Assembly (NCBI RefSeq): GCF_003626655.1
Contig: NZ_RBAN01000004.1
Coordinates: 620,001 to 684,000 of the forward strand
DNA length: 64,000 nucleotides
Reading direction: 5' to 3'
Source: Micromonospora costi
Lineage (GTDB): Bacteria; Actinomycetota; Actinomycetes; Mycobacteriales; Micromonosporaceae
Positions 3,826 to 32,901 of the stretch are shown here, piece after piece. The notes below the pieces were generated by a model. That model was not told the DNA's origin and ran no database searches. It was given only the letters and a program-made list of their open reading frames with translations. Each line of letters begins with the position of its first letter. Within the stretch, counting starts at the first letter, position 1. Both the position numbers and the translations under genes were made by a program.

Positions 3826-3835
3826 GTGCGTCCTT

Positions 3836-5239: not shown

Positions 5240-5259
5240 CCGTCTGCTCCTTCTCACAT

Positions 5260-5275
5260 ATACCCCGGGGGGTAT
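5260..5275. promoter_or_regulatory. CsoR/CstR-type operator of the sulfur operon
   Basis: ATACCCC-GG-GGGGTAT, a 7-2-7 inverted repeat 20 bp upstream of the fusion gene start. This is the C-tract/G-tract palindrome bound by CsoR-fold repressors. The regulator gene nearby has a near-identical box in front of it, so both promoters are probably controlled by that protein. Confidence 0.8.
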
Positions 5276-5373
5276 GCCGGGAATAGTCGTCACCCCTGGT
5301 CGACATCGCACACGCGCTTACCCACCCGGGCGGCGGACACGCCGTCCGGGCGCGGAGCGTCAGGCTCGGCGGA

Positions 5374-5748
<375 letters not shown>

Positions 5749-5756
5749 CTACTCGC

Positions 5757-6101
5757 TCACGCCGTGGGCGCTTCGGACAGGTTGCGGTCGATGTGGTCGG
5801 CGTGGAACAGAGCCTGCCGGAGGAGCCGCCGGACGTGGTCGTCAGCAGCGGAGTAGTAGACGAATGTTCCCTCGCGGCGCCCCTTGACGAGGCCCGCGAG
5901 GCGCAGCTTGGCCAGATGCTGGCTGACCGCGGTGGGGGCGGCTCCGGCGAGCTCGGCGAGGCAGGCGACGGAGGACTCCCCCTGCAAGAGCGCCCACAGG
6001 ACCTTGACCCGGGTGGGATCGGCCAGGAGTCGGAACGTCTCGGCCGCGAGATGCACCTGCTCCTCGTTGGGCATGTCGAAGTCGGGCAGCGACGTGTGCA
6101 T
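5757..6101 (-). CDS. ArsR/SmtB-family metal-sensing repressor
   Basis: 114-aa winged-helix repressor. The recognition helix is in the segment APTAVSQHLAKLRLAGLV (residues 55-72), followed by the beta-wing GRREGTFVYYS. The C-terminal helix carries Asp87-x-His89, ten residues, His100-x2-His103, the exact alpha-5 metal-site pattern of the SmtB/CzrA/NmtR group (Zn, Co or Ni). The CxC alpha-3 site of cadmium and arsenic sensors is absent: the only Cys is Cys47. The gene is divergent from the P1B-4 ATPase gene with 65 bp between the start codons, so it very likely represses that exporter and itself until divalent metal binds. Confidence 0.92.
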   Translation of the reverse strand: MHTSLPDFDMPNEEQVHLAAETFRLLADPTRVKVLWALLQGESSVACLAELAGAAPTAVSQHLAKLRLAGLVKGRREGTFVYYSAADDHVRRLLRQALFHADHIDRNLSEAPTA

Positions 6102-6144
6102 GGGCCGAGCATACCGACCATTCCATTGCTTGCGTATCTGCGTG

Positions 6145-6158
6145 TATGCGCATATAAG
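6145..6158 (+). promoter_or_regulatory. Operator overlapping -10 box of the leaderless P-type ATPase gene
   Basis: TATGCGCATA (6145-6154) is a perfect 10-bp palindrome typical of ArsR/SmtB operators. It overlaps a -10-like TATAAG (6153-6158) that ends 8 nt before the GTG start at 6167. No Shine-Dalgarno sequence is present, so transcription probably begins at or next to the start codon (leaderless mRNA). Repressor bound here would block polymerase directly. Confidence 0.7.
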
Positions 6159-6166
6159 ATGCCCGG

Positions 6167-8149
6167 GTGACGACGAGCGTCGAGAACCCCTCCGCTGCCC
6201 AGCCCACAGCGCCGGCCACCAGCCGTCGAGCCGGCCAGCGGCGGACCGCCCTGTGGTCGCTGCCGGAGGTCCGCTGGGCCGCCGCCGCGACCGGCCTGTT
6301 CGTGCTCGGCCTGCTGGCCCACCTGTCCCCCGCGCCGAGCTGGGTGTGGTGGGCGTTGTACCTCGCCTGCTACGCCGCGGGCGGGTGGGAGCCGGGCTGG
6401 GCCGGGTTGCGGGCGCTGCGCGAGCGCAAACTCGACGTCGACCTTCTGATGGTCCTGGCGGCGATCGGCGCGGCGTCCATCGGCCAGGTCCTCGACGGGG
6501 CGCTGCTCATCGTCATCTTCGCCACCTCGGGCGCACTGGAAGCCGTCGCCACCACACGCACCGAGGACTCCGTCAGCGGTCTGCTGGACCTCGCACCCGA
6601 CACGGCCACCCGCCTCACCGCGACCGGCGAGGAGACCGTCGACGCCGCCGACCTGCACGTGGGAGACGTCATCCTGGTCCGTCCCGGAGAGCGGATCGGC
6701 GCCGACGGAGAGGTCACCGGCGGCGCGAGTGAGGTCGACCAGGCCACCATCACCGGCGAGCCGCTGCCCGTCGACAAGCACCCCGGCGACGAGGTGTTCG
6801 CGGGAACCCTCAACGGCACCGGTGCGCTCCGCATCCGTGTGACCCGGCCTGCCGGCGACACGGTCATCGCCCGGATCGTCGCCATGGTCGCCGAAGCCAG
6901 CGCCACCAAGGCGCGGGTGCAGTTGTTCATCGAGAAGGTCGAACAGCGCTACTCAATCGGCATGGTCGCCGCCACCGTCGCCCTGTTCGTGATCCCGCTG
7001 GTGCTGGGTGCCGAACTGCAACCGACGCTGCTGAGGGCGATGACTTTCATGATCGTCGCGTCGCCGTGCGCGGTGGTGCTGGCCACCATGCCGCCGCTGC
7101 TGTCCGCTATCGCCAACGCCGGCCGGCACGGCGTGCTGGTCAAGTCCGCCGTGGTGATGGAACACCTCGCCACCGCCACCCGGGTCGCCTTCGACAAGAC
7201 CGGCACCCTCACCGAAGGCGCCCCACACCTGACCGACATCCGGCTCCTCCCCCGCGCCAGCCTCAGCGAGCGCCAACTCCTCACGTTGGCCGCCGCTGCC
7301 GAGCGTTCCTCCGAACACCCGCTCGCACGGGCGGTGGTCACCGCCGCCCGTGAGGCGCAGCTCCCGCTATCCGCACCGGACGCCTTCACCTCGACTCCCG
7401 GGCGCGGCGTCACCGCCCAGGTCGAAGGCCACCGGGTCGACGTGGGCAGCCCTGCCGGATGGGAGACGGGCCACGACCGCGCACTGTGCGCTCTCGTCGA
7501 CGAACTGGAGCAGACGGGCCGAACAGCGGTCGTGGTCCAGGTCGACGGCGAACCCGTCGGCGTGCTGGGCCTGGCCGACAAGCTCCGCCCTGACGCCGCC
7601 GCAACGGTCGCCCACCTCACCGCGGTGACCGGAGTGCGCCCGGTGCTGCTGACCGGCGACAACGAACGCGCCGCCCGACGGCTCGCCGGCGAGGTCGGAA
7701 TCGCCGATGTCCGCGCCGGTCTGCTACCTCAGGACAAGGTCGCCGCGGTACGCGAGATGGAGAGCCGCGGAGACCGCGTGGTCCTGGTCGGCGACGGCGT
7801 CAACGACGCCCCCGCCCTGGCCGCCGCCCACGTCGGCATCGCCATGGGCCGCGCCGGCTCCGACCTCGCCCTCGACACCGCCGACACCGTCGTCACCCGC
7901 GACGAACTCGCCACCCTGCCCGCCGTCATCGAACTGGCCCGCCGCGCCCGCCGGCTCGTCATCGCGAACCTCACCATCGCCGCCACGTTCATCGCCGTAC
8001 TCGTCGCGTGGGACCTCATCGGCACCCTGCCCCTACCACTCGGAGTCGCCGGGCACGAAGGCTCCACCATCATCGTCGGCCTCAACGGACTCCGCCTGCT
8101 CCGCCGAGCCGCCTGGGTGCGGGCAGCAAGCATGGGACCAGCGACATGA
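6167..8149 (+). CDS. P1B-4 type heavy-metal exporting ATPase (Co/Zn/Fe class)
   Basis: 660-aa P-type ATPase. The order is: short Arg-rich N-terminus without an HMA domain, membrane helices, actuator loop with TGEPLPV, TM helix with Ser-Pro-Cys at 299-301, phosphorylation loop DKTGTLTEG (Asp near 343), nucleotide-binding SSEHPLARAV, hinge GDGVNDAPAL, and a last helix with HEGST near residue 630. SPC plus HEG(S/G)T is the P1B-4 signature of Co2+/Zn2+/Fe2+ exporters such as CoaT and mycobacterial CtpD/CtpJ, as opposed to CPC copper pumps. The start is a GTG with no ribosome site. Control by the divergent ArsR/SmtB-type sensor is strongly suggested by the intervening palindrome. Confidence 0.93.
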   Translation: MTTSVENPSAAQPTAPATSRRAGQRRTALWSLPEVRWAAAATGLFVLGLLAHLSPAPSWVWWALYLACYAAGGWEPGWAGLRALRERKLDVDLLMVLAAIGAASIGQVLDGALLIVIFATSGALEAVATTRTEDSVSGLLDLAPDTATRLTATGEETVDAADLHVGDVILVRPGERIGADGEVTGGASEVDQATITGEPLPVDKHPGDEVFAGTLNGTGALRIRVTRPAGDTVIARIVAMVAEASATKARVQLFIEKVEQRYSIGMVAATVALFVIPLVLGAELQPTLLRAMTFMIVASPCAVVLATMPPLLSAIANAGRHGVLVKSAVVMEHLATATRVAFDKTGTLTEGAPHLTDIRLLPRASLSERQLLTLAAAAERSSEHPLARAVVTAAREAQLPLSAPDAFTSTPGRGVTAQVEGHRVDVGSPAGWETGHDRALCALVDELEQTGRTAVVVQVDGEPVGVLGLADKLRPDAAATVAHLTAVTGVRPVLLTGDNERAARRLAGEVGIADVRAGLLPQDKVAAVREMESRGDRVVLVGDGVNDAPALAAAHVGIAMGRAGSDLALDTADTVVTRDELATLPAVIELARRARRLVIANLTIAATFIAVLVAWDLIGTLPLPLGVAGHEGSTIIVGLNGLRLLRRAAWVRAASMGPAT

Positions 8150-17982: not shown

Positions 17983-18033
17983 ATACCTGTAGGGGGTATG
18001 CCTTCAGGCACCGTAGCATACCCCCGAGGGGTA
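17983..18033. promoter_or_regulatory. Two CsoR-type operators between copZ-like gene and csoR
   Basis: TACCCCCGAGGGGTA (18019-18033) is a clean palindromic box 17 bp before csoR. ATACCTGTAGGGGGTAT (about 17983-17999) is a second, imperfect box nearer the CopZ-like gene. Together they can switch both divergent promoters. Confidence 0.82.
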
Positions 18034-18049: not shown

Positions 18050-18346
18050 ATGACCACACCCACTCCGATCCGCGGATACACCGCCAGCAAGGACCAGCTG
18101 CTCGCGCGGCTCCGCCGCGTCGAGGGGCAGGTCCGCGGCGTCGAGAAGATGGTCGACGACGACCGCTACTGCATCGACGTGCTCACCCAGATCTCCGCGA
18201 TCCAGGCCGCGCTGGACAAGGTCGCCCTCGGCCTGCTCGACGGGCACGCCCGGCACTGCATGCACGAGGGAGCCGCCGAGGGCCGCGCCGACGAGATGGC
18301 CACCGAGATGATGGCTGCCGTCGGCCGCCTCATGAAGCGCGGCTGA
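18050..18346 (+). CDS. csoR: Copper-sensing repressor CsoR
   Basis: 98-aa four-helix DUF156 repressor. It has Cys41, His66 and Cys70: the pair of cysteines 29 residues apart with His four before the second is the complete Cu(I) trigonal site of CsoR. The segment RRVEGQVRGVEKMVDDDRYC then IDVLTQISAIQAALDKVAL is the classical family core. It has a palindromic TACCCC/GGGGTA box 17 bp upstream and similar boxes before the MFS, HMA and ATPase genes to the right, so it is the likely master of the copper island. In contrast to the paralogue at 5.4 kb it keeps the copper His. Confidence 0.95.
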   Translation: MTTPTPIRGYTASKDQLLARLRRVEGQVRGVEKMVDDDRYCIDVLTQISAIQAALDKVALGLLDGHARHCMHEGAAEGRADEMATEMMAAVGRLMKRG

Positions 18347-19975: not shown

Positions 19976-20025
19976 ATGCCCCTAGGGGGTATCGGTATGC
20001 GCTAGAGGTGTACCCCCACGGGGTA
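19976..20025. promoter_or_regulatory. CsoR-type operators before the MFS gene
   Basis: ATGCCCCTAGGGGGTAT (19976-19992) lies just upstream of the MFS ribosome site. TACCCCCACGGGGTA (20011-20025) follows. Both fit the CsoR box and would make the exporter copper-responsive. Confidence 0.75.
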
Positions 20026-20108: not shown

Positions 20109-20207
20109 TATTCATCGTTCATCTGGGGTGTCCCCTCGCGGCTGAGCAGCCACACGCGTGCCCGCACCGCGAGCTGGCGTCCCGTGTCCTCGGATAGGAG
20201 CTTGCCC

Positions 20208-20492
20208 ATGTGCACCAGCGGATCCAGCTGCGGTTGCGCCACCGCGGCCGCCGACAGCGCACCGACCACCGTCGACGCCGCCAGCGGCGTCCTCGCCACC
20301 TACGCCGTATCGGGGATGACCTGCACCGGCTGCGCCAACAACGTCAGCAAGCAGGTCAGCAGTCTTGAGGGCGTGATCGGCGTCGAGATTGACGTGGCCT
20401 CGGGCACCGTGGCGGTCACCAGCGCGGCGCCGTTGGCAGTTACCGACGTCCGCGCGGCCGTCGAGAAGGCCGGCTACCAACTCGTGAGCTGA
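20208..20492 (+). CDS. HMA-domain copper-binding protein with Cys-rich N-terminus
   Basis: 94 aa. The N-terminal tail begins MCTSGSSCGC, three cysteines in nine residues, and is followed by an Ala/Thr linker and one HMA domain (about residues 28-94) with GMTCTGC as metal loop. ATG 20208 is chosen because GGAG is 7 nt upstream. It differs from the CopZ-like protein at 17.7 kb by this extra Cys cluster, which could add a second Cu site. It is divergent from the MFS exporter gene and has its own CsoR-type box. Confidence 0.88.
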   Translation: MCTSGSSCGCATAAADSAPTTVDAASGVLATYAVSGMTCTGCANNVSKQVSSLEGVIGVEIDVASGTVAVTSAAPLAVTDVRAAVEKAGYQLVS

Positions 20493-21020: not shown

Positions 21021-21692
21021 CTAGAGGCGGTCGAGAATCCTCTGGAGGGTCTTCACCTCGGCCTCTTGATCCGAGGCGATTTTCGCTGCCAGGGCTTTGG
21101 CAGCCGGGTTACTGCCCCGCTCTCGCTCGGTCTTGGCCATGTCGATGGCGCCGTTGTGGTGCGCGATCATCATCTGGGCGAACCTCTTGTCGAACTGGGC
21201 GCCCCGGGCGGCCCCTAGCTCCGCCATCTCTTGGTCGGACATCATCCCCGGCATGCCCGATCCGCCGGGCGTGGGTGAGCCCATGCCATGCATGTCCTGG
21301 GCGGGAGCAGGGCTCATCCCCGGCATGCTGTGGTGGGTTGGAGCCGCGGTGGGCCTACCCCAAGCCGTCAGCCAGCCCGTCATCGTGGTGATCTCAGGGT
21401 CCTGCGCGACCTTGATCTTCGCTGCGAGGTCCTTCAGCTCCGGGTCGCCGGCGCGCGCGGCAGCCAGGTCCGCCATCGCGACCGCCTGTCGGTGGTGCGG
21501 GGTCATCATCTGCGCGAACATGACGTCCGCGTTGTTGAAGGTCGCGGCGGCGGAGGCCGAGGAGCTGGCCGTCGGGCCGCCGTTGCTGCGGTCCATGCCC
21601 GCCATGTCGCTGCCGCTGCAGGCCGCGGTCACCAGGAGGGCGGACAGCGCCGCGCCGCCCAGGGCCGCGCGCCGCAGATTGGTGCGCTTCAT
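21021..21692 (-). CDS. DUF305 lipoprotein, copper-island associated
   Basis: 223 aa. The lipobox VTAAC gives a lipidated Cys25 after a basic, hydrophobic signal peptide, so it is anchored outside the membrane. Two DUF305 motifs follow: MFAQMMTPHHRQAVAMADL (about 59-77) and the AQMMIAHHNGAIDMAKTE repeat (about 173-190). A Met/His-rich stretch (HHSMPGMSPAPAQDMHGMG) lies between them, which is the type of sequence that binds Cu(I). The gene starts 82 bp after the DUF6153 gene on the same strand and has AAAGGA ahead of its ATG. Extracytoplasmic copper handling is inferred from composition and neighbours. Confidence 0.9.
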   Translation of the reverse strand: MKRTNLRRAALGGAALSALLVTAACSGSDMAGMDRSNGGPTASSSASAAATFNNADVMFAQMMTPHHRQAVAMADLAAARAGDPELKDLAAKIKVAQDPEITTMTGWLTAWGRPTAAPTHHSMPGMSPAPAQDMHGMGSPTPGGSGMPGMMSDQEMAELGAARGAQFDKRFAQMMIAHHNGAIDMAKTERERGSNPAAKALAAKIASDQEAEVKTLQRILDRL

Positions 21693-22467: not shown

Positions 22468-24723
22468 CTACGGGGTCAGGCGAACTCGCCGCAGGAGCTG
22501 GGCATTGAGCGCCACCACGATGGTGGAGACCGACATCAGCACCGCGCCGATCGCGGGGCTGAGGCTGATCCCCGCCCAGGCGAGGACGCCGGCGGCGAGC
22601 GGAATCGCCACGACGTTGTAGCCGGCGGCCCAGATCAGGTTCTGGATCATTTTTCGGTACGACGCCCGGGACAGACGGATCACACCGGTCACACCGCGCG
22701 GGTCCGACGAGGCGAGGATAACCCCGGCGGACTCGATGGCGACATCCGTGCCCGCACCGATGGCGAGTCCGACGTCGGCGCGGGCCAGGGCGGGCGCGTC
22801 GTTGACGCCGTCCCCGACCATCGCGACGGTCAGCCCTCGGGCCTGCAGGTCGGCCACCGCCTGGTCCTTGTCGGCGGGCAGCACCTCGGCGAAGACCTCG
22901 TCGACCTCGGGACGGAAGCCCAGGTCCGCGGCGACGGCCTCGGCGACCGGCCGAGCGTCACCGGTGATCATGACGATCTTCCGCACGCCCTGCTCCCGCA
23001 GCTGCGCGATGGCCTCCCGGGCCTCGGGGCGGATCTCGTCCTCCAACGCGAACGCCCCGATCGCCTCCGCGCGGCCCCCGTCGGGTAGCCGGACCAGATG
23101 GAGCACCGCCGCGCCACGCGCCGACCAACCCTTCGCGACCGTCGCCAGTTCGTCCGGCACACTCGCTCCCACCTCACGAAGCAGGGCGGGACCGCCGACG
23201 GCGTAGGCGGTGCCGTCCACCACGGCCTGCACGCCCCGACCGGTCAACGACCGGAAACCATGGGCGCTCGCCCCCAGCCCCCGATCCCGAGCCACGGTCA
23301 CCAGCGCCTTGGCGAGGGGGTGCTCACTGTCCGCCTCGACCGCGCCGGCGATGCGCAACACCTCGTCCTCGACGACACCGGCAGCGGCGGCAGTGGCCGT
23401 TACGGTGTGTGCGCCCTTGGTCAGGGTGCCGGTCTTGTCGAACAGCACCGCGTCGACGGTGCGCATCCGCTCCAGGGCGAGGCGATCCTTGACGAGGATG
23501 CCCGCCTTTGCCGAGACCGCGGTCGAGAGCGCGATCACCAGCGGGATGGCCAACCCGAGGGCGTGGGGGCAGGCGATCACGAGGACCGTGACCGTGCGGA
23601 CGACGGACTCGTCGAGGTCGCCCAGCGCCCACCAGACGCCGAAGGTGACGAGCGCGGCGGCGGCCGCGACGTAGAACAGCATCGCCGCGAACCGGTCGGC
23701 GAGCACCTGGGCGCGGCCGGCGGACGCCTGCGCCTGGGCGACGAGCCGCCCGATGCCGGCCAGCGCGGTGTCGTCGCCGACGGCGTCCACGCGCAGCCGC
23801 AGAGCCGAGTCGGTTGCCACGGTGCCGGCTACCACCCGGTCTCCGACGCCGCGGGAGACCGGTCGGGACTCCCCCGTGATCATCGACTCGTCCAGTTCGG
23901 CGGCGCCCTCGACGATCCGGCCGTCTGCCGGCACCCGGGCGCCGGAGCGGACCAGAACGACGTCACCGACCCGCAGGTCGCTCACCGGGACGCGGTGCGG
24001 CTCACCGTTGTCGTCGATCCGCTCGGCGTCGTCGGGCAGCAGCGCCGCCAGAGCGGCAAGCGCGCCCTGCGCCTGGCCGATCGCCTTCATCTCCTGCCAG
24101 TGCCCCAGCAGCATGATGGTTACCAGCGCGGCGAGTTCCCACCAGAAGTCCAGGTCGAACAGACTCACGCTGGTCGCGAGGGAGGCCGCGTAGGCGACCG
24201 TGACGGCCATCGAGATCAGCAGCATCATCCCCGGGGCTCGGTCGCGGATCTCACGGACGCCGCCGACCAGGAACGGCCATCCGCCGTAGAAGAAGACCAC
24301 CGAGCCGAGGATCGGGCCGACCAGCTTCATGCCTGGGAAGTCCAGGGAGTAGCCGAACCAGTCCATCACCATGTGGCTGGTCACCACGATCGGCAGTGTC
24401 AGGGCGAGGCTGAGCCAGAACTTTCGACGGAACTGCTCCGGGTCGTGGCCGGCGTGCTTGTCATGCCCCCCATGCCCGGCGTGGCCGTGATCATCTGCGT
24501 GGTGGTGCCCGTCATGTCCGCCGGCGCTCACGTTCGGCTGTCGTAGCTGCGCGGCGGTCGATCGGGCCGAGCCGCTGTCGTGGTGGGCCGTCAGGGGATG
24601 GGGGGCAACCGGGGCCGCACCGTGGTGGGGATCCACCGCGTGGGCATTGCCCGCGTGGAAGCGCTCACGCGCCGCCACGTCGACGTGCCTCGCGTCGTCA
24701 TGCCTGCTGTGTTCGTGTCTCAT
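22468..24723 (-). CDS. CopB-type (P1B-3) copper ATPase with His-rich N-terminus
   Basis: 751 aa. The first ~100 residues are unusually rich in His (HDGHHHADDHGHAGHGGHDK and other clusters) and replace HMA domains. Then come the membrane helices, actuator motif TGESRPV, Cys385-Pro-His387 in the sixth helix (IACPHALGLAIP), phosphorylation site DKTGTLTKG with Asp429, DSEHPLAKAL and the hinge GDGVNDAPALARADVG. CPH is the mark of P1B-3/CopB pumps. ATG 24723 has GGAGGTG 7 nt upstream; 33 codons upstream are open but cover the operator. Two CsoR-type boxes precede it. It probably is the main copper exporter here, since the neighbouring CopA is a remnant. Confidence 0.92.
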   Translation of the reverse strand: MRHEHSRHDDARHVDVAARERFHAGNAHAVDPHHGAAPVAPHPLTAHHDSGSARSTAAQLRQPNVSAGGHDGHHHADDHGHAGHGGHDKHAGHDPEQFRRKFWLSLALTLPIVVTSHMVMDWFGYSLDFPGMKLVGPILGSVVFFYGGWPFLVGGVREIRDRAPGMMLLISMAVTVAYAASLATSVSLFDLDFWWELAALVTIMLLGHWQEMKAIGQAQGALAALAALLPDDAERIDDNGEPHRVPVSDLRVGDVVLVRSGARVPADGRIVEGAAELDESMITGESRPVSRGVGDRVVAGTVATDSALRLRVDAVGDDTALAGIGRLVAQAQASAGRAQVLADRFAAMLFYVAAAAALVTFGVWWALGDLDESVVRTVTVLVIACPHALGLAIPLVIALSTAVSAKAGILVKDRLALERMRTVDAVLFDKTGTLTKGAHTVTATAAAAGVVEDEVLRIAGAVEADSEHPLAKALVTVARDRGLGASAHGFRSLTGRGVQAVVDGTAYAVGGPALLREVGASVPDELATVAKGWSARGAAVLHLVRLPDGGRAEAIGAFALEDEIRPEAREAIAQLREQGVRKIVMITGDARPVAEAVAADLGFRPEVDEVFAEVLPADKDQAVADLQARGLTVAMVGDGVNDAPALARADVGLAIGAGTDVAIESAGVILASSDPRGVTGVIRLSRASYRKMIQNLIWAAGYNVVAIPLAAGVLAWAGISLSPAIGAVLMSVSTIVVALNAQLLRRVRLTP

Positions 24724-24749
24724 GCCGTCCACCTCCGCGTAGCACCATA

Positions 24750-24794
24750 TACCCCCTAGGGGTATGTTGCAAGTACCCCTGCCCCTCAGGGGTA
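24750..24794. promoter_or_regulatory. CsoR-type operators before the CPH ATPase gene
   Basis: TACCCCCTAGGGGTA (24750-24764) is a perfect palindromic box 27 bp upstream of the start. TACCCC...GGGGTA with a longer spacer (24774-24794) is a second one. They tie the ATPase to the CsoR regulon. Confidence 0.82.
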
Positions 24795-24840
24795 TGAGGC
24801 GGACGGAACTCGCCATGTTCACCCGAGCACCAGCTGGCGT

Positions 24841-26271
24841 CTACGGTGATGCGGCCACGTCCCACAGCGGTCCTGCGACGACGCCTGCCGCGAGACTGAG
24901 GGCGGCAGCGGTCACGGCGAGCCTCGCCGACCACCGTCTCCCCGCCCTGTCGTCCGCTGGCGGATGATCGCTGCCCGGCGGGGTGGGCGCGGGCTCGCGG
25001 TAGGTCGGCATGATCCAGCGCAGGTAGTAGAACAGGCTGGCCAGCGTGTTCATGAAGACGACGACCGCGAGCCAGGCGTAACCTCCGTCCCACGCGGCGG
25101 TCGCGGTCGTGAGCTTGCCGACGAACACGGCGGTGGGTGGGGTCCCCACCAGGCCGAGCAGCGCCACCAGCAGCGCGGCCGCCAACCACGGCCGCTGGCC
25201 TGCCACGCCCCGCCAGTGGGCGAGGTCCCGGCCCGCGGGCAGCGCCGCGGTGGCGGCGAACGCGGCGATGTTCGTGACGACGTAGCCGGTGAGATACACC
25301 AGCAGCGAGGGCAGGGCGAGGTCGCTGCGGCCGGCGGCCACGACCGGGACGAGGAGGAACCCGACCTGGCTGACGGTGGACCAGCCGAGCAGACGCCTCG
25401 GGTCCGCCTGCCAGTAGGCCGCGAGGTTGCCCAACGTCATGCTCGCCGTGGCGACCGCGGCGAGCATGACCGGCCACGGCGTCGGGTCGGGCAGCATCAC
25501 GACGAACCGGTAGACCGCGATCAGCGCGCCGATCTTGGGCACCGTGGTGACGAAGGTCGCCGCGAGGGCCGTTGAGCCCTGCGCGGCGTCCGGGATCCAG
25601 AAGTGCGCCGGGACGGCGCCGGCCTTGAACAGCAGGCCGGCGATGGCCGCGACCGCGGCGAGGGTGACCGCGGCCTGCGGCGCCTCGGGCATGCGGTCGG
25701 CGAGTTGCGTGTAGCCGGTGGTGCCCGTGAGCCCGGACAGGATGCTCACTCCGAGCAGGAGCAGGATGCCGAACAACGCTCCCAGCAGGTACGTCTTCAC
25801 GGACGCCTCGGCGCTGGCGGCGCTCATCGCGAGGCCGATCAGCGCGTAGAGCGGGATGCTGGCGAGCAGGAAGCCGACGGCGAGGACCAGCAGGTCGGTG
25901 GCGCCGGCGAGGAGGACGGCGCCGGCGGTGGCGAAGAGCAGCAGCGCGTACGTCTCGCTCTCCCGCGCTGTCCCGGCGATCTCGTCAGCGGCGATCGCGA
26001 GGATGAGCAGGGCGCCTGCCGCGGCGAGGACCCGGGCGACGCCGGTTGCGGTGTCGACCGTAAAGGAGTCGTTGAAGGCGGTGGTGGCGGGCCGGGCCAG
26101 TTGGAGTGACGCGGTGACGATCACGGCGAGGAGCACGGCAACGGTGAGGCCACGGATGATCCATTGCCGGCGGCGCGGCGTGAAGGAGCCGCCTATCAGC
26201 GCGGTGAGAGCGCCGCCGGCGAGCAGCATCTCGGGCAGCAGCAGCCCGGGCCGCATCATCTCCGTCTCCAC
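24841..26271 (-). CDS. nuoN: Complex I membrane subunit NuoN-like
   Basis: 476 aa with about 14 helices, antiporter-like subunit. GLLFKAGAVPAHFWIPDAAQG carries the channel Lys, and TTVPKIGALIAVYR the second Lys. The helix-5 segment reads VGFLLASIPLYALIG, where canonical NuoN has a conserved Glu (LGLELMSLPLY-like); here it is Leu. Last gene of the operon, 3 bp after nuoM. It would sit in the membrane between NuoM and NuoK/J. The missing Glu suggests altered or lost proton pumping at this unit. Confidence 0.9.
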   Translation of the reverse strand: METEMMRPGLLLPEMLLAGGALTALIGGSFTPRRRQWIIRGLTVAVLLAVIVTASLQLARPATTAFNDSFTVDTATGVARVLAAAGALLILAIAADEIAGTARESETYALLLFATAGAVLLAGATDLLVLAVGFLLASIPLYALIGLAMSAASAEASVKTYLLGALFGILLLLGVSILSGLTGTTGYTQLADRMPEAPQAAVTLAAVAAIAGLLFKAGAVPAHFWIPDAAQGSTALAATFVTTVPKIGALIAVYRFVVMLPDPTPWPVMLAAVATASMTLGNLAAYWQADPRRLLGWSTVSQVGFLLVPVVAAGRSDLALPSLLVYLTGYVVTNIAAFAATAALPAGRDLAHWRGVAGQRPWLAAALLVALLGLVGTPPTAVFVGKLTTATAAWDGGYAWLAVVVFMNTLASLFYYLRWIMPTYREPAPTPPGSDHPPADDRAGRRWSARLAVTAAALSLAAGVVAGPLWDVAASP

Positions 26272-26274
26272 CGC

Positions 26275-27762
26275 TCACCGCCCGACGAGGTCGACGACGG
26301 TGTGGGCGGCCGGTTCGATGACGGCGAGCAGCGGGCGGGGCAGGATGCCGATCAGCAGGGACAGCAGCAGCAGTGGCCCGACCGACCATCGCTCGCTCGC
26401 CCGCAGGTCCGTGAAGCCGACGGACTGGCCGCGGGTCTCTCCGGTGAACACGCGTTGCAGCGCGCGGAGGAACAGCGCGGCGGTCACCAGGATGCCCAGC
26501 AGCGCGATCGCCGAGACGGGGGCGGCGGCGACGCTGCCGGTGAAGATCTGGAACTCGGCGATGAACCCGGAGAACGCGGGCAGGCCCAGCGAGGCGAACG
26601 CGCCGACGGCGAAGAGGGTCGCGAAGGCCGGTGCGGGGGCGGCGAGGCCGCCGTACTCGCGCATGTCGTAGGTGCCGGCCCGGTTGCGCAGCACACCGGC
26701 GAGGAGGAACAGCGCGGCGGTGATCAGACCGTGGCTGACCATCTGGGTGACAGCGCCGGTGACCGCCACCGACCGGGTCTGCGCGGTGCCGGCGGTCAGG
26801 CCGGCGACGCCGACGGCGAGGACGATGTAGCCCATGTGGTTGACCGACGTGTAGGCGACCATCCGTTTGAGGTTGGACTGGGCCAGCGCGACAAGCGCGC
26901 CGTAGATGACCGAGACGACCCCGACGGTGATGATCACCCAGGCCCAGGCACGCCACGCCGTTGGCAGCATCGGCATGGCGATGCGCACGAACCCGTAGGT
27001 GCCCATCTTCAGCAGCACCCCGGCCAGGACCGCCGAGCCGACGGCGGGCGCGTCGGTGTGAGCCGGTGGCAGCCACGTGTGGAACGGCACCGTCGGCGTC
27101 TTGACCGCCAGACCGAGCAGGATGGCGGCGAGCACCAGCCCGCCGAGGAGGGGCCGTCCGGCCAGCGGGGGCGCGGCGGTGAGGTCGAGCATGTCGAAGG
27201 TGTGCGGGTCAGCGGCGACGTAAAAGCCGATGAACCCGACGAGCAACGCCAGCGACCCGAGGAACGTGTAGAGGAAGAACTTCAGCGCCGAGTGGCGCCG
27301 GTCGCCGTGCCCCCAACCGGCGATGACGAAGAACATGCCGACGATGGACAGGTCGAAGAAGACGAAGAACAGGATCAGGTCGGCCGCCACGAACAGGCCG
27401 AGGCTGACGCTCTGCAGGAACAGGAACAGCGCGGCCTGCGCACGTGGCCGGTGCTGCTCGCGCAGCGCGTACATCGCGCAGGCCAGGAAGATCACCGCGG
27501 TCATCGCCACCAGCGGCAGCGACAACCCGTCCACTCCGACGTGGTAGCTGCTGTTCACCCCCGGTATCCACGCCACCCGCTCCTCGTAGGCCAGCTCCCC
27601 CGCCGCCGGGCTGTCGTAGCGCGCCCACAGGATCGCGATGAGGGCGAGGTCGACGGCAGCTACGGCCACCCACAGTGCGCGGGCGGCTGTGTCGCCCACA
27701 CGTGGCACGGCGACCAACGCCACCGCTGCGGCCAGTGGGAGGAAGACGATCACGCTGAGCAC
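26275..27762 (-). CDS. nuoM: Complex I membrane subunit NuoM-like
   Basis: 495 aa, about 14 helices. VKTPTVPFHTWLPPAHTDAP and VLLKMGTYGFVRI give the two conserved Lys sites, and SGFIAEFQIFTG the last typical loop. The helix-5 motif, normally with Glu (EWEMMLVPM-like), is LFFVFFDLSIVGMFFVIAGWG, i.e. Asp in place of Glu. The gene starts 3 bp after nuoL and ends 3 bp before nuoN. All landmarks of an antiporter-like pump are otherwise retained. Confidence 0.93.
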   Translation of the reverse strand: MLSVIVFLPLAAAVALVAVPRVGDTAARALWVAVAAVDLALIAILWARYDSPAAGELAYEERVAWIPGVNSSYHVGVDGLSLPLVAMTAVIFLACAMYALREQHRPRAQAALFLFLQSVSLGLFVAADLILFFVFFDLSIVGMFFVIAGWGHGDRRHSALKFFLYTFLGSLALLVGFIGFYVAADPHTFDMLDLTAAPPLAGRPLLGGLVLAAILLGLAVKTPTVPFHTWLPPAHTDAPAVGSAVLAGVLLKMGTYGFVRIAMPMLPTAWRAWAWVIITVGVVSVIYGALVALAQSNLKRMVAYTSVNHMGYIVLAVGVAGLTAGTAQTRSVAVTGAVTQMVSHGLITAALFLLAGVLRNRAGTYDMREYGGLAAPAPAFATLFAVGAFASLGLPAFSGFIAEFQIFTGSVAAAPVSAIALLGILVTAALFLRALQRVFTGETRGQSVGFTDLRASERWSVGPLLLLSLLIGILPRPLLAVIEPAAHTVVDLVGR

Positions 27763-27765
27763 GGA

Positions 27766-29607
27766 TCAGCCCGCCGCCACGAGGACGACCACAGCGACCA
27801 CGAGCACCACGATGGCCTGCCGGTAGTACTGGTGCACCTGGCCACTCTGGGGCCGGCGCGCCAGCTGCCCCAACCGGCGCATTCCGGCGGCGAACCGCTC
27901 CACCGTGCCGTCGACCCACCGGTCGTCGAGCACCGCCGCCCGACGCGCGGCATGGGCCGATGCGGCTGCCACGCGCTCCACGGCACGGTCGAGCACCCTG
28001 TCGTCGAAGCGAGCGAGCAGGTCGGCGAGCCGCACGGTCGGACGGGCGACCAGCGCGTGGGCGGCGTTCTGCAGTCCGAGCCAGCGCAGCGCCCACCGCG
28101 GCTCGGGGACGGGTCGGCGGGCCACCAGCAGCACGACGGCCACGGCGAGGGCCGCCGACGCGGCCAGCTCGAGCAGCGACGCGGAGACCGCGTCGCGCTC
28201 ATCGACGGCTCGGGCGAGCATGGCGGCTGCTGGCGGGAGGGCCAGCACCCCGGCGGATGCGGAGGCCAGCGCGAGCACCACCAGTGGCGCCTGCTCCAGT
28301 CGGGTTATCGCGCGTTGCGGGGCCCGCTCCCGGTCGCCGTCGCGGTCGGCGGTCGGCCGCCGCCAGATGACCATGAGCAGCTTCCCCGCGTACGCGGCCG
28401 ACAGCAGCGACGCCGCCAATCCCACGACGTACAGCACCGGTGAGTGCCGCAGCACGCCGGTGAGGACGGCGTCCTTGGTCGCCCACAGCGACAGCGGCGG
28501 AATCCCGGCCAGCGCGAGCGCTCCGACAGTGGCCGACCAGCCGACCAGTCGCCATCGGCCGACAACGCCGCGCAACTCGGCGAGCTGCTGGGTGCCCAGC
28601 GTGGACAGCCAGGCGCCCGCACCGAGGAACAGCAGCGCTTTCGTCGCGGCATGCGCGACCAGGTGCGCAGCGCCCCCGGCGACCGTGCCCGCGCCGGCGG
28701 CCATGACGACGAACCCGAGTTGGGCGCAGGTCGAGGCGGCGAGGAGCTGCTTGACGTCGCGCTGCGCGACCGCGACGGCGCCGATCAGCAACGCGGTCAG
28801 GGCTCCCACCCACATGGCCACCGGGCCGGCCCAGCCGGTCGCGGCGAGCAGCGGCTGCACCCGCAGCAGCAGGTAGCCGCCCATGGCCACCATCGCCGCC
28901 GAGTGCAGCAGCGCGCTGACCGGGCTCGGGCCGGCCATCGCGCGGGACAGCCAGAACGACACCGGCAGCTGCGCCGCCTTGCCCAGCGCCGCCGCGAGGA
29001 TCCCGGCGGCAATCACGTGCCGCCATCCCGTAACGGCAGCGGGCAGGTCAGTCAGGGCCAGACCCGCGCCGCCCGCGAGCGCCGCCGCGGCGGCGACGTA
29101 CAGGCCCAGGTCGGTGGCGCGGGTGGTGAGGAACGCGGTCAGGCCAGCGGACACCCGGTCGGTGTCGCGCCACCAGAATCCGATCAGCGCGTACGAGGCG
29201 GCGCCCATGATCTCCCAGGCGAACAGCAGAGTGGGCAGGGTCGTCGCGGTCACGGTCACCGCGACGGAGGCGACGAACAGCAGCATCAGGCCATGGAATC
29301 GGGCCTGGGCGTGGCGGATCTGTCCGGTGGCGGCGAGCAGCACCAGCAGACTGACCACGGTCAGCGTGGGCAGTGTCAGCGCGGCGAGCGCGTCCACGGC
29401 CAGGCCGAAGGGCGCGTTCGCCACGAACGCGACGGCCACGCTGGGCCGCTCCACCGCGACCAGCAGCGACAGCCCCACCGACAGCGCGGCGACCGCCATC
29501 GAGACGGGCACGGCGACACGGTCAGCCCGCCAGGTCAGGGCCAGCAGAGCTCCCGCTCCCGCCGGCAGGGCGACCAGCGACCACAGCGCCACCTGCCCGA
29601 GACTCAT
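27766..29607 (-). CDS. nuoL: Complex I membrane subunit NuoL-like
   Basis: 613 aa. The ATG at 29607 overlaps the nuoK stop by 4 bp. Channel residues are intact: Glu in LLFAWEIMGAASYALIGFW, Lys in ALGKAAQLPVSFWLSRAMAG, SPVSALLHSAAMVAMGGY, and Lys in ATKALLFLGAGAWLS. The C-terminal part has the extra region expected for the lateral helix: a charged amphipathic stretch (about 490-590), then a final hydrophobic helix (AIVVLVVAVVVLVAAG). It is the distal pump of the membrane arm. Confidence 0.93.
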   Translation of the reverse strand: MSLGQVALWSLVALPAGAGALLALTWRADRVAVPVSMAVAALSVGLSLLVAVERPSVAVAFVANAPFGLAVDALAALTLPTLTVVSLLVLLAATGQIRHAQARFHGLMLLFVASVAVTVTATTLPTLLFAWEIMGAASYALIGFWWRDTDRVSAGLTAFLTTRATDLGLYVAAAAALAGGAGLALTDLPAAVTGWRHVIAAGILAAALGKAAQLPVSFWLSRAMAGPSPVSALLHSAAMVAMGGYLLLRVQPLLAATGWAGPVAMWVGALTALLIGAVAVAQRDVKQLLAASTCAQLGFVVMAAGAGTVAGGAAHLVAHAATKALLFLGAGAWLSTLGTQQLAELRGVVGRWRLVGWSATVGALALAGIPPLSLWATKDAVLTGVLRHSPVLYVVGLAASLLSAAYAGKLLMVIWRRPTADRDGDRERAPQRAITRLEQAPLVVLALASASAGVLALPPAAAMLARAVDERDAVSASLLELAASAALAVAVVLLVARRPVPEPRWALRWLGLQNAAHALVARPTVRLADLLARFDDRVLDRAVERVAAASAHAARRAAVLDDRWVDGTVERFAAGMRRLGQLARRPQSGQVHQYYRQAIVVLVVAVVVLVAAG

Positions 29608-29906
29608 CGGGACAGGTCCCGGGCCAGGTCGGTCATGTCCACGCGTCGCACGCGGTGCAACATCGTCGCCACCGCGAAGCCCATTGCCATCTCCACGGTC
29701 ATCGCGGCGATGATGACCAGCAGCAGCACCTGCCCCGACGGGTCCGGGGCGAGGAACCACCAGAAGCCGGCGGCGGCGAGGATCAGCCCGTTGAGCATCA
29801 GCTCGAGCCCCATCATCACCATGACCACCACCTGCTGGGAAAGCGCGCCGTAGAGGCCGACGCTGAACAGCGCCGCCGCCACCAGCAGCACCATCTGCAG
29901 CGTCAC
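29604..29906 (-). CDS. nuoK: Complex I membrane subunit NuoK-like
   Basis: 100 aa with three helices. The two conserved membrane Glu residues are kept: VMVMMGLELMLNGLILAA (helix 2) and AAMTVEMAMGFAVATM (helix 3). Start overlaps the nuoJ stop by 4 bp and the stop overlaps nuoL by 4 bp. Standard length for the family. Confidence 0.92.
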   Translation of the reverse strand: MTLQMVLLVAAALFSVGLYGALSQQVVVMVMMGLELMLNGLILAAAGFWWFLAPDPSGQVLLLVIIAAMTVEMAMGFAVATMLHRVRRVDMTDLARDLSR

Positions 29907-30466
29907 CTGCCGACACCCCCCGGCTGCGGGTCGTCAGCGGGGCGGCGGCGCAGGTCGTCGCCGAACCGGTCGTAGCGGGTCTGGTGCGCGGCCAGCACGA
30001 CGCCGGCGACGATGGTGGCCGCCATGACCACGCCGACGGCGGCCATGACGAGCATCTTCGGGCCCATCAGCTCCTCCCCCAGCGTCATCGTCACGTCGGC
30101 GGGCGGCGTGCCGCGGCGGGTGGGCCAGGGCACGATCAGCGTCCCGGCGGCCAGCAGCACGAACACGCCGATCGACACGGCCAGGGCATGACGCTTGTCG
30201 TGGACCATGCTCATCGGCATCAGCGCCGGGTTCATGCCCATGAACATGATCATGTAGACGGCCATGACGGCCATCTCCATGACCATCATCAGGATCGTCA
30301 CCACGCCGACGTAGTTCTGCTGGAGCAGCAGCACCTGCAGGCCGACGCCGATGAAGGAGACAGCGAGGGCGTAACTGGCGCGGGCCATCGAGTTCACGAT
30401 GAACACGGCCGCACCGGCGAGGACCGCTACGACCGCCAGGACCCAGAACGCCACGTGGCTGACCAT
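29903..30466 (-). CDS. nuoJ: Complex I membrane subunit NuoJ-like
   Basis: 187 aa with five hydrophobic segments, among them FWVLAVVAVLAGAAVFIVNS (helix 1) and the Met-rich VTILMMVMEMAVMAVYMIMFMG (helix 3), where canonical NuoJ has the pi-bulge. ATG 30466 lies 2 bp after the nuoH stop; the frame is open further upstream but inside nuoH. The very high Met content (about a dozen in 40 residues) is unusual but plausible for a membrane subunit. Confidence 0.88.
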   Translation of the reverse strand: MVSHVAFWVLAVVAVLAGAAVFIVNSMARASYALAVSFIGVGLQVLLLQQNYVGVVTILMMVMEMAVMAVYMIMFMGMNPALMPMSMVHDKRHALAVSIGVFVLLAAGTLIVPWPTRRGTPPADVTMTLGEELMGPKMLVMAAVGVVMAATIVAGVVLAAHQTRYDRFGDDLRRRPADDPQPGGVGR

Positions 30467-30468
30467 CG

Positions 30469-31410
30469 TCAGCTCCTCGCGAGGGCGATACCGGCGACGA
30501 GCAGGTCCTGCAGCAGCACGGCGGGCAACAGCACCACCCAGCCGATCTCCATGAACAGGTCCGGGCGCACCACGGGCAGGCGGCGGCGCAGCCACACGAG
30601 CGCGGCCAGCAGGGCGAGGGTCTTCACCAGCACCCACAGCCAGGCCGGCAGCAGCGGGCCGGCGCCGCCACCGAGGAACATCGGCACCGCGAACGCCGCA
30701 CCCGCGGCCAGCAGCGCGTATCGGCCGCCCAGGAACAGCAGTCGGTCGACGCCGGACAGCTCCGCACTCACCCCGCCCGCCACGTCAGGTGCCACGGCTG
30801 CGGAGAACGGCCCCCACATCGCGATCGCCAGCACGCCCATGCAGAAGACCAGGAAGGCGAGCGGCATCCACGTCACGAACCACAGGCCCTGCTGGGCGGC
30901 CGCGATCGTGCCGACGTTGAGGCTCGAGGCGGCCACCGCGGGCGCCACCAGCGCGAACATCAGAGGCAGCTCGTAGGCGAGCCCATAGGCGAGGAAGCGG
31001 TACCCGCCGACCAGCGCATGCGCCGAGTTGGCGCCCCAGCCGGTCAGCCACACGAACGCCCACGCCAGGACATCCATTGCGTTGAACCACACGACCCCGA
31101 CGTCCAGGTCGAACAGCGTCCACGCTCCCAGCGGCACCACCGTGACGATCATCAGCGCCATCACCAGCAGCCCCGCACCGCCGGTACGCCACAGCAGGGT
31201 GTCCGCCGCGACGGTGGCCCGACGCCGCTGCCACATCAGCCGGGCCACCTCCCCCGCCGGCCGACTCCACCCGGTGCCGGCGGCGGCGCCGGCTGCTCGC
31301 GCGGACAGGAGCCCATCGACGATCGCGGCAACCGAAGCGAGCAGGCCCAGCAGACCGGCCGCGCCCAGCGCCCAGAACGCGGGAACGACCGTCACGGAGG
31401 GGTCAGACAC
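30469..31410 (-). CDS. nuoH: Complex I membrane subunit NuoH-like, diverged quinone loop
   Basis: 313 aa with about eight helices. GWGANSAHALVGGYRFLAYGLAYELPLMFAL is the conserved GWxxNxxxALxGxxR...YExP element. The next loop, where ordinary NuoH has RxPFDLPEAExELVxGY lining the quinone cavity, reads GPFSAAVAPDVAGGVSAELSG then VDRLLFLGGRYALLA: the acidic motif is largely gone. Overlaps the upstream NuoB/D-like gene by 8 bp. It would anchor any peripheral module, but its quinone pocket is probably changed. Confidence 0.88.
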   Translation of the reverse strand: MSDPSVTVVPAFWALGAAGLLGLLASVAAIVDGLLSARAAGAAAGTGWSRPAGEVARLMWQRRRATVAADTLLWRTGGAGLLVMALMIVTVVPLGAWTLFDLDVGVVWFNAMDVLAWAFVWLTGWGANSAHALVGGYRFLAYGLAYELPLMFALVAPAVAASSLNVGTIAAAQQGLWFVTWMPLAFLVFCMGVLAIAMWGPFSAAVAPDVAGGVSAELSGVDRLLFLGGRYALLAAGAAFAVPMFLGGGAGPLLPAWLWVLVKTLALLAALVWLRRRLPVVRPDLFMEIGWVVLLPAVLLQDLLVAGIALARS

Positions 31411-32566
31411 GGCTCACCTCGCGGGCCGGGGCCGCGGCATCCAGGTCGAGGCTGGCGACGATCAGTCGCGCAGTCGCAAGATCCCAGCCCCGCACCAGCT
31501 CCGCCACCGCCTCCACCGGCACCGTCGGCTGCCCGGTTGCCCGGTGACTGCTCTCCTCTGCCACTGCCCGCGACGCGCGATCGAGCATGCCCAGCAGCCG
31601 GTCATGGGCATCACCCTCGAGCGTGTCCGGCAGGTCGCGGTTCACCAGATCCGACCGACTGAGCGAACCGAGCCGCCTCAGGGACCAGCGCAGCAACCAG
31701 GAGCGGCGCACCGTCCGGGTCAACCGAGCCAGCCGTGCCGGCGCATCGGCCGCGCCGTCCGGGTCCAGCAGTATGTCGCGGACCTGGCGAGCACCGGACG
31801 CGGCGTCATGGGCGCCGGCCAGCGCCAGCAGGCTGGCCGCGTTGTCGCACCGCCGGGCCGCGAACAGACGCCCGCTGCGGCTCGCACTGTCGTGCTCCGG
31901 GGTCCTGTGGCTGGGGTCGGTGAGGCTGGCTTGCGCGTCGACGATCACATCGCCGGAGAGGGTGCAGCGCAGGACCAGGCCGGCAGGCCAGTACGCCAAC
32001 ACGGGGCCAAGTCGTACGTGCAGGACGTCCAGTTCGAGGCCGTCGCGGTCCTCCCCGCGGTTGGCGAGCGGGATACCGGCCGGCGCCATGTCCATGTCGC
32101 CGTGCGCCACACCGGCGTGCCCGGCGTGCCCGGCATGCTCGTCGCCGCCCTTCGCATGATCCCCGTGGGGTCCATGACCACCGGTCGGGTGGCCGTCCGG
32201 GCGCGTTTGATCACCGCGGCCCCCTCGGCGCACACGGCTGTCGGTCTGCTGCCGGGTGATGTCCCGCAGATCCGCTTCGGCGATGTCGAGGGCGTGGCGC
32301 ACCTGCTCCGGCGATTCGATGCCGATGCGGACCCGCGGTCCGGGCATTTGCTGCCACAGCCGGTCCGCCACCGTGGCCAACTCGACGCCCGGCGTGCCGC
32401 ACACGGCCAGGACGTCGGCGTCCGCCGGGGACTGAGCCAGCCGCCATCCTCGGTCCAGAAGGTGATGTTCGGCCGCGACTCTCGTGAGCCAGTGCCCCGG
32501 TGTCTCCACCAGCAGGACGTGCGCGTGGCGGGCTGCCAGCCGGTGCAGCATGCTGGTCAGACCCAT
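31403..32566 (-). CDS. NuoB/NuoD-like protein without cluster ligands, His-rich linker
   Basis: 387 aa. The N-terminal third resembles NuoB (SPADADVLAVCGTPGVELAT and then RLWQQMPGPRVRIGIE match the ADxLxVxGxVTxxM...LYxQMPxPxxVI pattern), but the four Cys that hold cluster N2 are absent. A His/Gly/Asp linker follows (residues about 118-155, GGHGPHGDHAKGGDEHAGHA and on). The part from about 165, DVLHVRLGPVLAYWPAGLVL then RCTLSGDVIVDAQ, faintly recalls the start of NuoD. The C-terminal 200 residues are helical and unknown. It overlaps nuoA by 10 bp and nuoH by 8 bp, taking the place where nuoB-C-D normally stand. It cannot carry out iron-sulfur electron transfer as far as I can see. Confidence 0.7.
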   Translation of the reverse strand: MGLTSMLHRLAARHAHVLLVETPGHWLTRVAAEHHLLDRGWRLAQSPADADVLAVCGTPGVELATVADRLWQQMPGPRVRIGIESPEQVRHALDIAEADLRDITRQQTDSRVRRGGRGDQTRPDGHPTGGHGPHGDHAKGGDEHAGHAGHAGVAHGDMDMAPAGIPLANRGEDRDGLELDVLHVRLGPVLAYWPAGLVLRCTLSGDVIVDAQASLTDPSHRTPEHDSASRSGRLFAARRCDNAASLLALAGAHDAASGARQVRDILLDPDGAADAPARLARLTRTVRRSWLLRWSLRRLGSLSRSDLVNRDLPDTLEGDAHDRLLGMLDRASRAVAEESSHRATGQPTVPVEAVAELVRGWDLATARLIVASLDLDAAAPAREVSRV

Positions 32567-32901
32567 CGCAGGGCCCCTTCGCGCCAGGCCCACAGCACGG
32601 CCACGAAGACGCCGCCGAGGAAGATGAACATCTCGACGAGCGCCGTGGCCCCCATCTGGGCGACCACGACCGCCCACGGGTACATGAACAGCATCTCCAC
32701 GTCGAACGCGAGAAACAGCAGGGTCGCCAGATACCACCGCACGTGGTGGCGCGAGAGCGCATGTTCCTCAGGGGGCCACCCGGATTGGAAGGGCAGGCAG
32801 GTCAGCGGCGCGGCGACGATCGCCAGCGCACGGTGAGCCAGGTAGAGGCCGGCAACGATCAGCACCGCCACCAGAGCCATTCCGACAGCGCCCGCGTACA
32901 T
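32557..32901 (-). CDS. nuoA: Complex I membrane subunit NuoA-like
   Basis: 114 aa, three helices. VRWYLATLLFLAFDVEMLFMYPWAVV is the hallmark helix 2 with the conserved acidic DVE. The loop before it, normally YECG(I/F), is PFQSGWPPEEHALSRHH, so the functional Cys is lost. First gene of the operon, with GGGAG ahead of the ATG; the upstream spacer to the same-strand GH3 gene is only 87 bp, and it must hold the operon promoter if transcription is independent. Confidence 0.9.
   Translation of the reverse strand: MYAGAVGMALVAVLIVAGLYLAHRALAIVAAPLTCLPFQSGWPPEEHALSRHHVRWYLATLLFLAFDVEMLFMYPWAVVVAQMGATALVEMFIFLGGVFVAVLWAWREGALRWV

Follow-up and report, generated by a model that had tools for sequence, protein, structure and literature searches.

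Operons with the partial NDH-1 gene set nuoAHJKLMN have been published from marine actinomycetes (Salinispora, Streptomyces and Kocuria), and the papers, in the passages covered, interpret the product as a pump for sodium or protons that serves adaptation to marine or osmotic conditions (PMC3314556, PMC4018334, PMC6002675, PMC6676996). The gene order given in PMC6676996 is nuoA, a hypothetical protein and then nuoH-J-K-L-M-N. Two of the carriers recorded there come from sites rich in copper and are explained as hyperosmotic: K. marina SO9-6 (PMC6002675) and S. albidoflavus SM254 (PMC6676996). Within the passages covered, none of the four papers analyses the eighth gene or proposes a role in copper, and the main texts of PMC3314556 and PMC4018334 contain the word "copper" 0 times. 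Here we describe an operon of this layout in a stretch of 64,000 nucleotides from Micromonospora costi (contig NZ_RBAN01000004.1, positions 620,001 to 684,000), referred to below as the window. In our judgment, its product is very probably linked to copper or another soft metal and non-redox.

The operon and its NuoB/NuoD-like protein

The operon is located on the minus strand (32901-24841) and comprises eight genes in the order A-BD-H-J-K-L-M-N, which overlap or abut and each of which has an intact reading frame with a single stop. A Pfam scan assigned the A, H, J and K domains and the antiporter domain of L, M and N in the seven membrane proteins. These are a NuoA-like subunit of 114 amino acids (aa) (32557..32901; PF00507, expectation value (E) 1.5e-23), a NuoH-like subunit of 313 aa (30469..31410; PF00146, E 2.4e-42), a NuoJ-like subunit of 187 aa (29903..30466; PF00499, E 9.9e-10), a NuoK-like subunit of 100 aa (29604..29906; PF00420, E 1.4e-12), a NuoL-like subunit of 613 aa (27766..29607; PF00361), a NuoM-like subunit of 495 aa (26275..27762; PF00361, with TIGR01972 above its cut-off) and a NuoN-like subunit of 476 aa (24841..26271; PF00361), all on the minus strand. 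Coordinates and Pfam agree with an earlier note on this DNA, which had described A, H, J, K, L, M and N-like genes in tight overlap.

Between A and H lies a protein of 387 aa, here called BD (31403..32566, minus strand), for which the scan of the window proteins returned no Pfam match. It is read here as a fusion of a NuoB-like part, a metal-binding linker and a NuoD-like part, without iron-sulfur ligands. The NuoB-like half (residues ~1-117; 32216..32566, minus strand) lacks the cluster-N2 cysteines and was recognized by a profile match to NuoB chains and by Foldseek. It is followed by a disordered linker rich in His, Met and Asp (residues ~118-160; 32087..32215, minus strand), with a predicted local distance difference test score (pLDDT) of ~50, and by a shortened NuoD-like half (residues ~166-382; 31421..32071, minus strand), which was placed by its fold and by alignment via distant relatives.

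For the first half, NCBIfam gave NuoB matches only, far under the curated cut-offs and at residues ~31-85 (TIGR01957, E 2.8e-4, residues 38-82), and a profile built from 24 BD relatives matched solved NuoB chains over residues 36-83 with a best E of 7.4e-6. The AlphaFold model of BD, based on a 49-row alignment, has a mean pLDDT of 85.1. Residues 180-382 of this model superpose on the NuoD chain of mycobacterial complex I (8e9g_D) with Z 17.3 and a root-mean-square deviation (rmsd) of 3.1 over 202 aligned residues; further NuoD chains tie with this hit within one Z unit, and so does 7z0s_E (Z 17.0), the large subunit of formate hydrogenlyase. Lower in the Foldseek output, the NuoB chain 7arc_B was matched across 134 columns with an rmsd of 2.9 (E 8.4e-3).

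The 49-sequence alignment (A2) consists of the window and 48 of the 80 named loci introduced below; another alignment (A3) took 31 of 78 loci and the window. No invariant or near-invariant cysteine column was found among the 49 sequences, and a CC pair in the N-terminal half, as in the cluster-N2 site of NuoB, was present in 0 of 49. When the window and 8 distant relatives were aligned as a bridge to NuoD, GPQHPSTHG was found replaced by GPVLAYWPAG, and the segment GYLHTGIEK was lost; we take the histidine motif and this segment to be quinone-site elements of NuoD. Judged from alignment and predicted fold, BD is a fused, redox-dead NuoB-NuoD. The profile, the modelled fold and the alignment uphold the earlier description of a NuoB/NuoD-like protein devoid of the cluster cysteines, and these ligands are not restored in the aligned homologues, as an ordinary split complex I would have them.

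The linker of BD has a median His+Met content of 22%, against 4% elsewhere in the protein, and reaches at least 15% in 40 of 49 linkers, with linker bounds set roughly. In 5 of 9 distant BDs scanned, the Pfam domain HMBD was identified (PF19335, E 1.5e-12 to 2e-14). This distant clade, which occurs in both phyla treated below, reads NuoB-like part, HMBD and Complex1_49kDa (NuoD; best E 2.2e-16) in one chain, and the HMBD motif was found in 7 actinobacterial and 10 gammaproteobacterial BDs. Pfam NuoD matched 8 of the 9 distant BDs, with the same best E, and the NuoB matches were all under the Pfam cut-off or missing (E at most 1 in 6 of 9). Since two different metal-binding solutions, the His/Met linker and HMBD, occupy the same position of BD, metal handling is strongly supported.

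Elsewhere in this genome, a complete-looking nuoA-N operon was located (C1, ~2.136-2.152 Mb), and there are also a partial second nuo set (C3) and, on C5, a cluster of the hydrogenase-4-like kind, their subunits being partly assigned by eye. The module in the window is thus an additional one and not the sole complex I of the cell. The second nuo set (C3 650000-658200 and 968000; L120, L121) has its NuoD-like gene ~310 kb away from its own nuoH/J/L/M and is perhaps a split second complex I. In the hydrogenase-4-like cluster (C5 285000-300000; L122), the small-subunit protein reads CNGCEIE and a 954-aa open frame matches the NuoD/HycE family. Assignment of the window operon to the relatives of membrane-bound [NiFe] hydrogenases, which have an iron-sulfur small subunit and NiFe cysteines in the large one, was considered and rejected, as BD has no conserved cysteines, despite the fold tie with the hydrogenase-type large subunit.

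Distribution of the module and its conserved residues

Of the 298 genomes of the order, 53 gave a BD match; that of G193, with 98 residues and two stops, is doubtful. A scan of genome contigs gave 275 confirmed BD relatives, the best 80 of which are referred to as the named loci. They belong to Micromonospora, Salinispora, Dietzia, Janibacter, Nocardioides, Mycolicibacterium, Kocuria, Arthrobacter, Brevibacterium, Rhodococcus and other genera, together with two loci from Lysobacter. The order A-BD-H-J-K-L-M-N is kept in all 80, contig ends aside, although the BD and J frames of one locus (L110) are broken; this recurrence is far beyond chance. When the B, C, D, E, F, G and I subunits of canonical type from the M. 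costi genome were used as blastp queries, no counterpart was found in the 80 named loci, save one G-like match in L092; the earlier note had recorded the absence of nuoC, E, F, G and I from the operon.

A NuoJ query matched 35 of 396 Actinomycetota genomes, and in the 20 loci retrieved the gene order is unchanged, within the limits of their contigs. In some of these distant loci the BD model was weak or silent, and the gene was marked by the canonical NuoD query instead; in one (L163) neither matched, and a Pfam NuoD match was found there. Within Gammaproteobacteria, the class of Lysobacter, 18 of 369 genomes matched, and 17 of the 18 retrieved loci were of the redox-less kind with the same order, contig ends aside. 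The remaining locus, L279, gave the weakest match; it encodes a canonical complex I, peripheral genes included, lacks the methionines described below and serves as an internal control. NuoC, E, F, G and I were found in none of the 20 distant and 17 gammaproteobacterial loci, some of which are short, and all five were found in L279.

The family NuoJ was also found on 14 of 72,556 plasmids, 11 of which are typed as mobilizable or conjugative, and the carriers include soil and human isolates. Among the plasmids with this NuoJ are those of Mycobacterium avium and M. intracellulare isolates, several of which came from people, where it is annotated as NADH-quinone oxidoreductase subunit J.

NuoJ of the window carries a ladder of methionines, M63, 64, 66, 68, 71, 75, 77, 79, 81, 86, 88 and 90, followed by H92 (30200..30289, minus strand); residue numbers count from the codon at 30475 and are lower by 3 if counted from the ATG at 30466. 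M30, 63, 64, 68, 71, 75, 79, 81, 88, 90 and 141 and H92 are present in all 79 or 80 near sequences (most counts are out of 79, the near NuoJ of L110 being split) and in no fewer than 35 of the 36-37 distant sequences. In NuoK, M29, M31 and M69 are kept almost as strictly in near and distant sequences; M32 is conserved too, yet common to canonical NuoK. In NuoA, M70 and M73 are found in 80/80 near and 34/34 distant sequences and H53 in 78/80 and 34/34. Apart from M32, the conserved positions just listed for the three subunits are not Met (or His) in the two canonical sequences aligned; for A, J, K and H this panel comprised 2-3 canonical sequences, with 2 for NuoA.

A wider NuoJ comparison gave 13 columns with at least 80% Met in 108 sequences of the Met family, compared with 1 in 31 canonical actinobacterial rows, which include the NuoJ of this genome twice. 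Mean identity is 0.56 in the family, 0.50 among its distant members and 0.37 in canonical NuoJ; the higher family identity explains part of this difference, but not why Met stands out among residues. In the family, conservation of at least 90% is reached by 12 of 17 Met columns, 5 of 21 Leu columns and 1 of 34 Val columns, which makes Met the best conserved class. Methionines in membranes are usually interchangeable with Leu or Ile. From their strict retention across two phyla we infer that the conserved methionines of NuoJ, NuoK and NuoA coordinate a soft metal. M64, 68, 71, 75 and 79 share one helical stripe, in the predicted helix 54-79. In a NuoJ tree of 90 rows, Met-type and canonical sequences fall into separate groups in 74% of the bootstrap replicates; the support (70/79) is not decisive, and a single origin of the Met type is not proven.

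The antiporter-like subunits retain charged residues at charged canonical positions: E132, K210, K286 and K378 in NuoL (77 sequences), D137 (canonical Glu), K221, K252 and E403 in NuoM (75 sequences) and E155, K159, K246 and K386 in NuoN (75 sequences). We take these to be proton-path residues; as they are kept, proton conduction through L, M and N is likely to be intact.

Copper genes and CsoR-like boxes around the operon

Directly downstream of the operon, a P-type ATPase is encoded (22468..24822, minus strand; PF00122, E 1.4e-48), which was judged by eye to be of the heavy-metal type from its His-rich N-terminus and whose true start is probably the ATG near 24720. Between nuoN and this ATPase lies the palindrome TACCCCCTAGGGGTA (24750..24764), identified by its motif, which we take to be a CsoR-like box. 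Further along are a DUF305 protein (21021..21692, minus strand; PF03713, E 7.6e-52), a CopZ-like heavy-metal-associated (HMA) protein (20184..20492, plus strand; PF00403, E 2.7e-16) with boxes at 20011 and 20094, and a CsoR-like repressor (18050..18346, plus strand; assigned by eye from its translation) with a box at 18019. A DUF6153 protein is also encoded beside the operon. In total, the window has 6 CsoR-like palindromes, including those at 18019, 20011, 20094 and 24750, where block shuffling gives 0.15 expected. Around the start of nuoA, an exact box was found within ~330 nt in 9 of 78 loci, with 0.74 expected from locus density, and a box with at most one mismatch in 14 of 78 loci, compared with 55 of 4000 random windows.

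The association with copper genes was tested independently by family counts over whole genomes and by the distant loci with control stretches. For the former, 59 BD loci in 52 genomes and the family matches were compiled by hand, leaving out the row of G193 and second pieces of one locus. DUF305 was found within 15 kb of 19 of the 59 loci (1.04 expected) and DUF326 within 15 kb of 14 (0.34 expected); both expectations are slightly low, as the weakest family matches fall outside those listed. Copper-type genes stood beside 11 of 18 distant loci and in 1 of 20 control stretches of the same genome set (Fisher p 2.4e-4). Among the named loci they stood beside 35 of 56 full-length ones and in 0 of 20 control stretches, a count with some circularity, as clustering of the 80 named loci themselves had supplied the query set. 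Controls were round positions on hand-chosen long contigs; 10 genomes were used for the distant set and 14 for the near one. Since the loci share kinship, the p-values overstate independence.

On the conjugative plasmid of Arthrobacter FB24 the operon comes directly after a gene for a multicopper oxidase, and F510_1955, DUF305 and one sulfocyanin-like copper protein are encoded shortly before it. "Glycosylhydrolases" of the F510_1955 type are a recurrent copper-island neighbour, found in the flanks of 15 named loci and in NC_008537.1.

Elsewhere in the window, a sulfur-type cluster (2330-5673, minus strand) was recognized by eye, encoding permease-like, rhodanese-like and metallo-hydrolase/rhodanese-like proteins as well as a repressor of the CsoR/CstR-like type; CsoR-like boxes lie at 5261 and 5675. 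At 5760-8146, a divergent ArsR-like regulator and P-type ATPase form a second metal-resistance unit, also by eye.

Function, alternatives and comparison with known systems

The fixed eight-gene order, a BD without iron-sulfur ligands, the lack of peripheral genes and the presence of another, complete-looking complex I in the genome strongly support a repurposed membrane arm, as the earlier note had proposed. Its suggestion of a different electron input is not supported, as we saw no recurrent redox partner that would replace the missing subunits, and the quinone-site motif of NuoD is gone; the same two points make its other option, no electron input, fit better. It had missed the link to metals, which is given by the Met ladder, the linker or HMBD and the copper islands. 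Of the soft metal ions, Cu(I) is most likely the one handled.

As redox input is absent, complex I in reverse is the simplest model to work with. The linker of BD would capture Cu(I), or Ag(I), from the cytoplasm, with BD docked at the NuoB/NuoD site on NuoH/A/J/K. The metal would then be handed along the Met ladder of NuoJ transmembrane helix 3 and NuoK via the former E-channel, and H+ influx through L, M and N would drive it outward by the same chain of charge and conformational changes as in complex I, working in the opposite sense. Exported metal may reach multicopper oxidase and other envelope copper proteins. Export is favoured since the neighbours are of resistance types and BD would be cytoplasmic, as NuoB and NuoD are. 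We give this complete mechanism, proton-driven copper export by a complex I-derived complex, an even chance. The broader proposal of a new class of metal pump, an electron-less complex I in which H+ influx moves Cu(I)/Ag(I) on a Met ladder, NuoB-HMBD-NuoD loads the metal, and plasmids and islands have spread the system across Actinomycetota and Gammaproteobacteria, is tentative and stands slightly below even odds. A categorically new function for a member of the complex I superfamily is possible and unproven.

Several observations weigh against this interpretation. That metal is transported at all, in which direction, and whether it is Cu or Ag or another soft metal, is something we infer. Compared directly by hhalign, the BD family and two canonical NuoD gave a weak match (53 columns, 7.9% probability), so the fold and the distant relatives carry the kinship of BD with NuoD. 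The AlphaFold model of NuoJ is of low confidence (pLDDT 65) and was used for helix boundaries only; M81-M90 and H92 fall beyond the predicted helix. M66, M86 and M144 of NuoJ and H84 of NuoK are not retained in distant members, M66 and M86 being confined to the near family. No listed copper-type gene was found in 31 of the 80 named loci, including all six from Salinispora, some of these contigs being short, nor within ~12 kb upstream and 10 kb downstream of the Rhodococcus and Gordonia plasmid loci. The gammaproteobacterial flanks are weaker, with a match to the copper set in 5 of 17 loci; when 121 of the 234 listed flank open reading frames (A4, all from gammaproteobacterial loci) were scanned, Cu-oxidase families matched 3 proteins and CopB 2, among the first 25 of 138 families listed; a further family listing gave the first 25 of 607. 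Finally, 64 of 78 loci have no CsoR-like box at nuoA with one mismatch tolerated, and the nuoA of the window itself has none ahead.

Two other readings keep a pump and change what feeds it. BD or the Met ladder might take electrons from Cu(I) to quinone or oxygen while the membrane arm pumps H+, so that copper oxidation replaces that of NADH. Both copper-binding and pump parts are indeed retained and multicopper oxidases are frequent neighbours, but the iron-sulfur ligands are lost, the HP-THG and GYLHTG quinone-site segments of NuoD are replaced or lost and, multicopper oxidases aside, the flank clusters listed hold no widely recurring redox partner, which leaves a copper-fed redox pump unlikely. 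The published view, a sodium or proton pump or antiporter for marine or osmotic life, draws on the reports of nuoAHJKLMN in marine actinomycetes, as far as these were covered (PMC3314556, PMC4018334, PMC6002675, PMC6676996), on the retained charged antiporter residues and on the Salinispora loci without nearby copper genes. It leaves the Met ladder, HMBD and the copper islands unexplained, the plasmid carriers include isolates from soil and humans, and two of the papers, in the parts covered, themselves record carriers from copper-rich sites (PMC6002675, PMC6676996); we hold it to be rather unlikely.

Copper could also act on the complex without being exported by it. If copper on BD and the ladder opened or closed H+ flow, with no metal moved, the same anatomy and the same charged residues would serve; a long conserved Met row on the same side of a helix looks more like a path than like a single sensor site, and such a gated channel or sensor seems rather improbable to us. 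Uptake of Cu(I), or its supply to envelope cuproproteins in place of detoxification of the cytoplasm, would suit the multicopper oxidase and sulfocyanin-like genes close by, but many neighbours are of resistance or sequestration types (Csp-like, CopZ, CsoR, metal ATPase), and we regard it as distinctly improbable. As to an ordinary split complex I that borrows its peripheral arm from another nuo operon, the genome search suggested earlier did find a complete-looking candidate on C1. This operon has its own full membrane arm, however, BD fills the places of NuoB and NuoD without ligands in the aligned relatives, and the two kinds of NuoJ part in the tree, if not decisively (74% of bootstrap trees, 70/79). 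The idea is largely refuted and has only a very slight chance of being right.

If the proposed proton-driven export is true, the operon would be a natural experiment on the central question about complex I, how the NuoB/D/H/J/K end is coupled to proton movement in L, M and N, in this case without redox chemistry. It would also represent a new type of copper-resistance machine, carried on mobile plasmids by environmental and some clinical actinobacteria.

The operon shares with respiratory complex I homologous A, H, J, K, L, M and N subunits, the NuoB/NuoD folds in BD and the charged proton-path residues, and differs in having no C, E, F, G and I, no iron-sulfur ligands and no quinone-site motif; the Met ladder and the metal-binding linker are its own additions. 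With Mrp antiporters it shares related L/M/N-type antiporter subunits, and differs from them by NuoA, NuoH and BD and by having only eight genes, MrpE/F/G not having been searched singly. For the ladder, the parallel we would draw is with the Met-based Cu(I) transporters Ctr1 and CusA, which have repeated membrane methionines, including MxxxM; their folds are unrelated, and neither is a multi-subunit relative of complex I. HMBD is the same domain in the distant-clade BDs, inserted there between the NuoB-like and NuoD-like parts. Features of the copper-handling class, predicted metal-binding motifs and an above-chance association with copper genes, are present, the latter not at every locus. 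In the open-access literature, covered mostly at the level of titles and abstracts, none of the identity of BD, the Met ladder, the HMBD fusion and a copper role was found. By gene content and order, compared through the published descriptions, as far as these were covered, and not through the papers' own sequences, the partial NDH-1 is the same operon, and the six Salinispora loci carry the family BD and NuoJ as the window operon does. If the copper reading is true, it would replace marine adaptation as the explanation of this recurrent operon.

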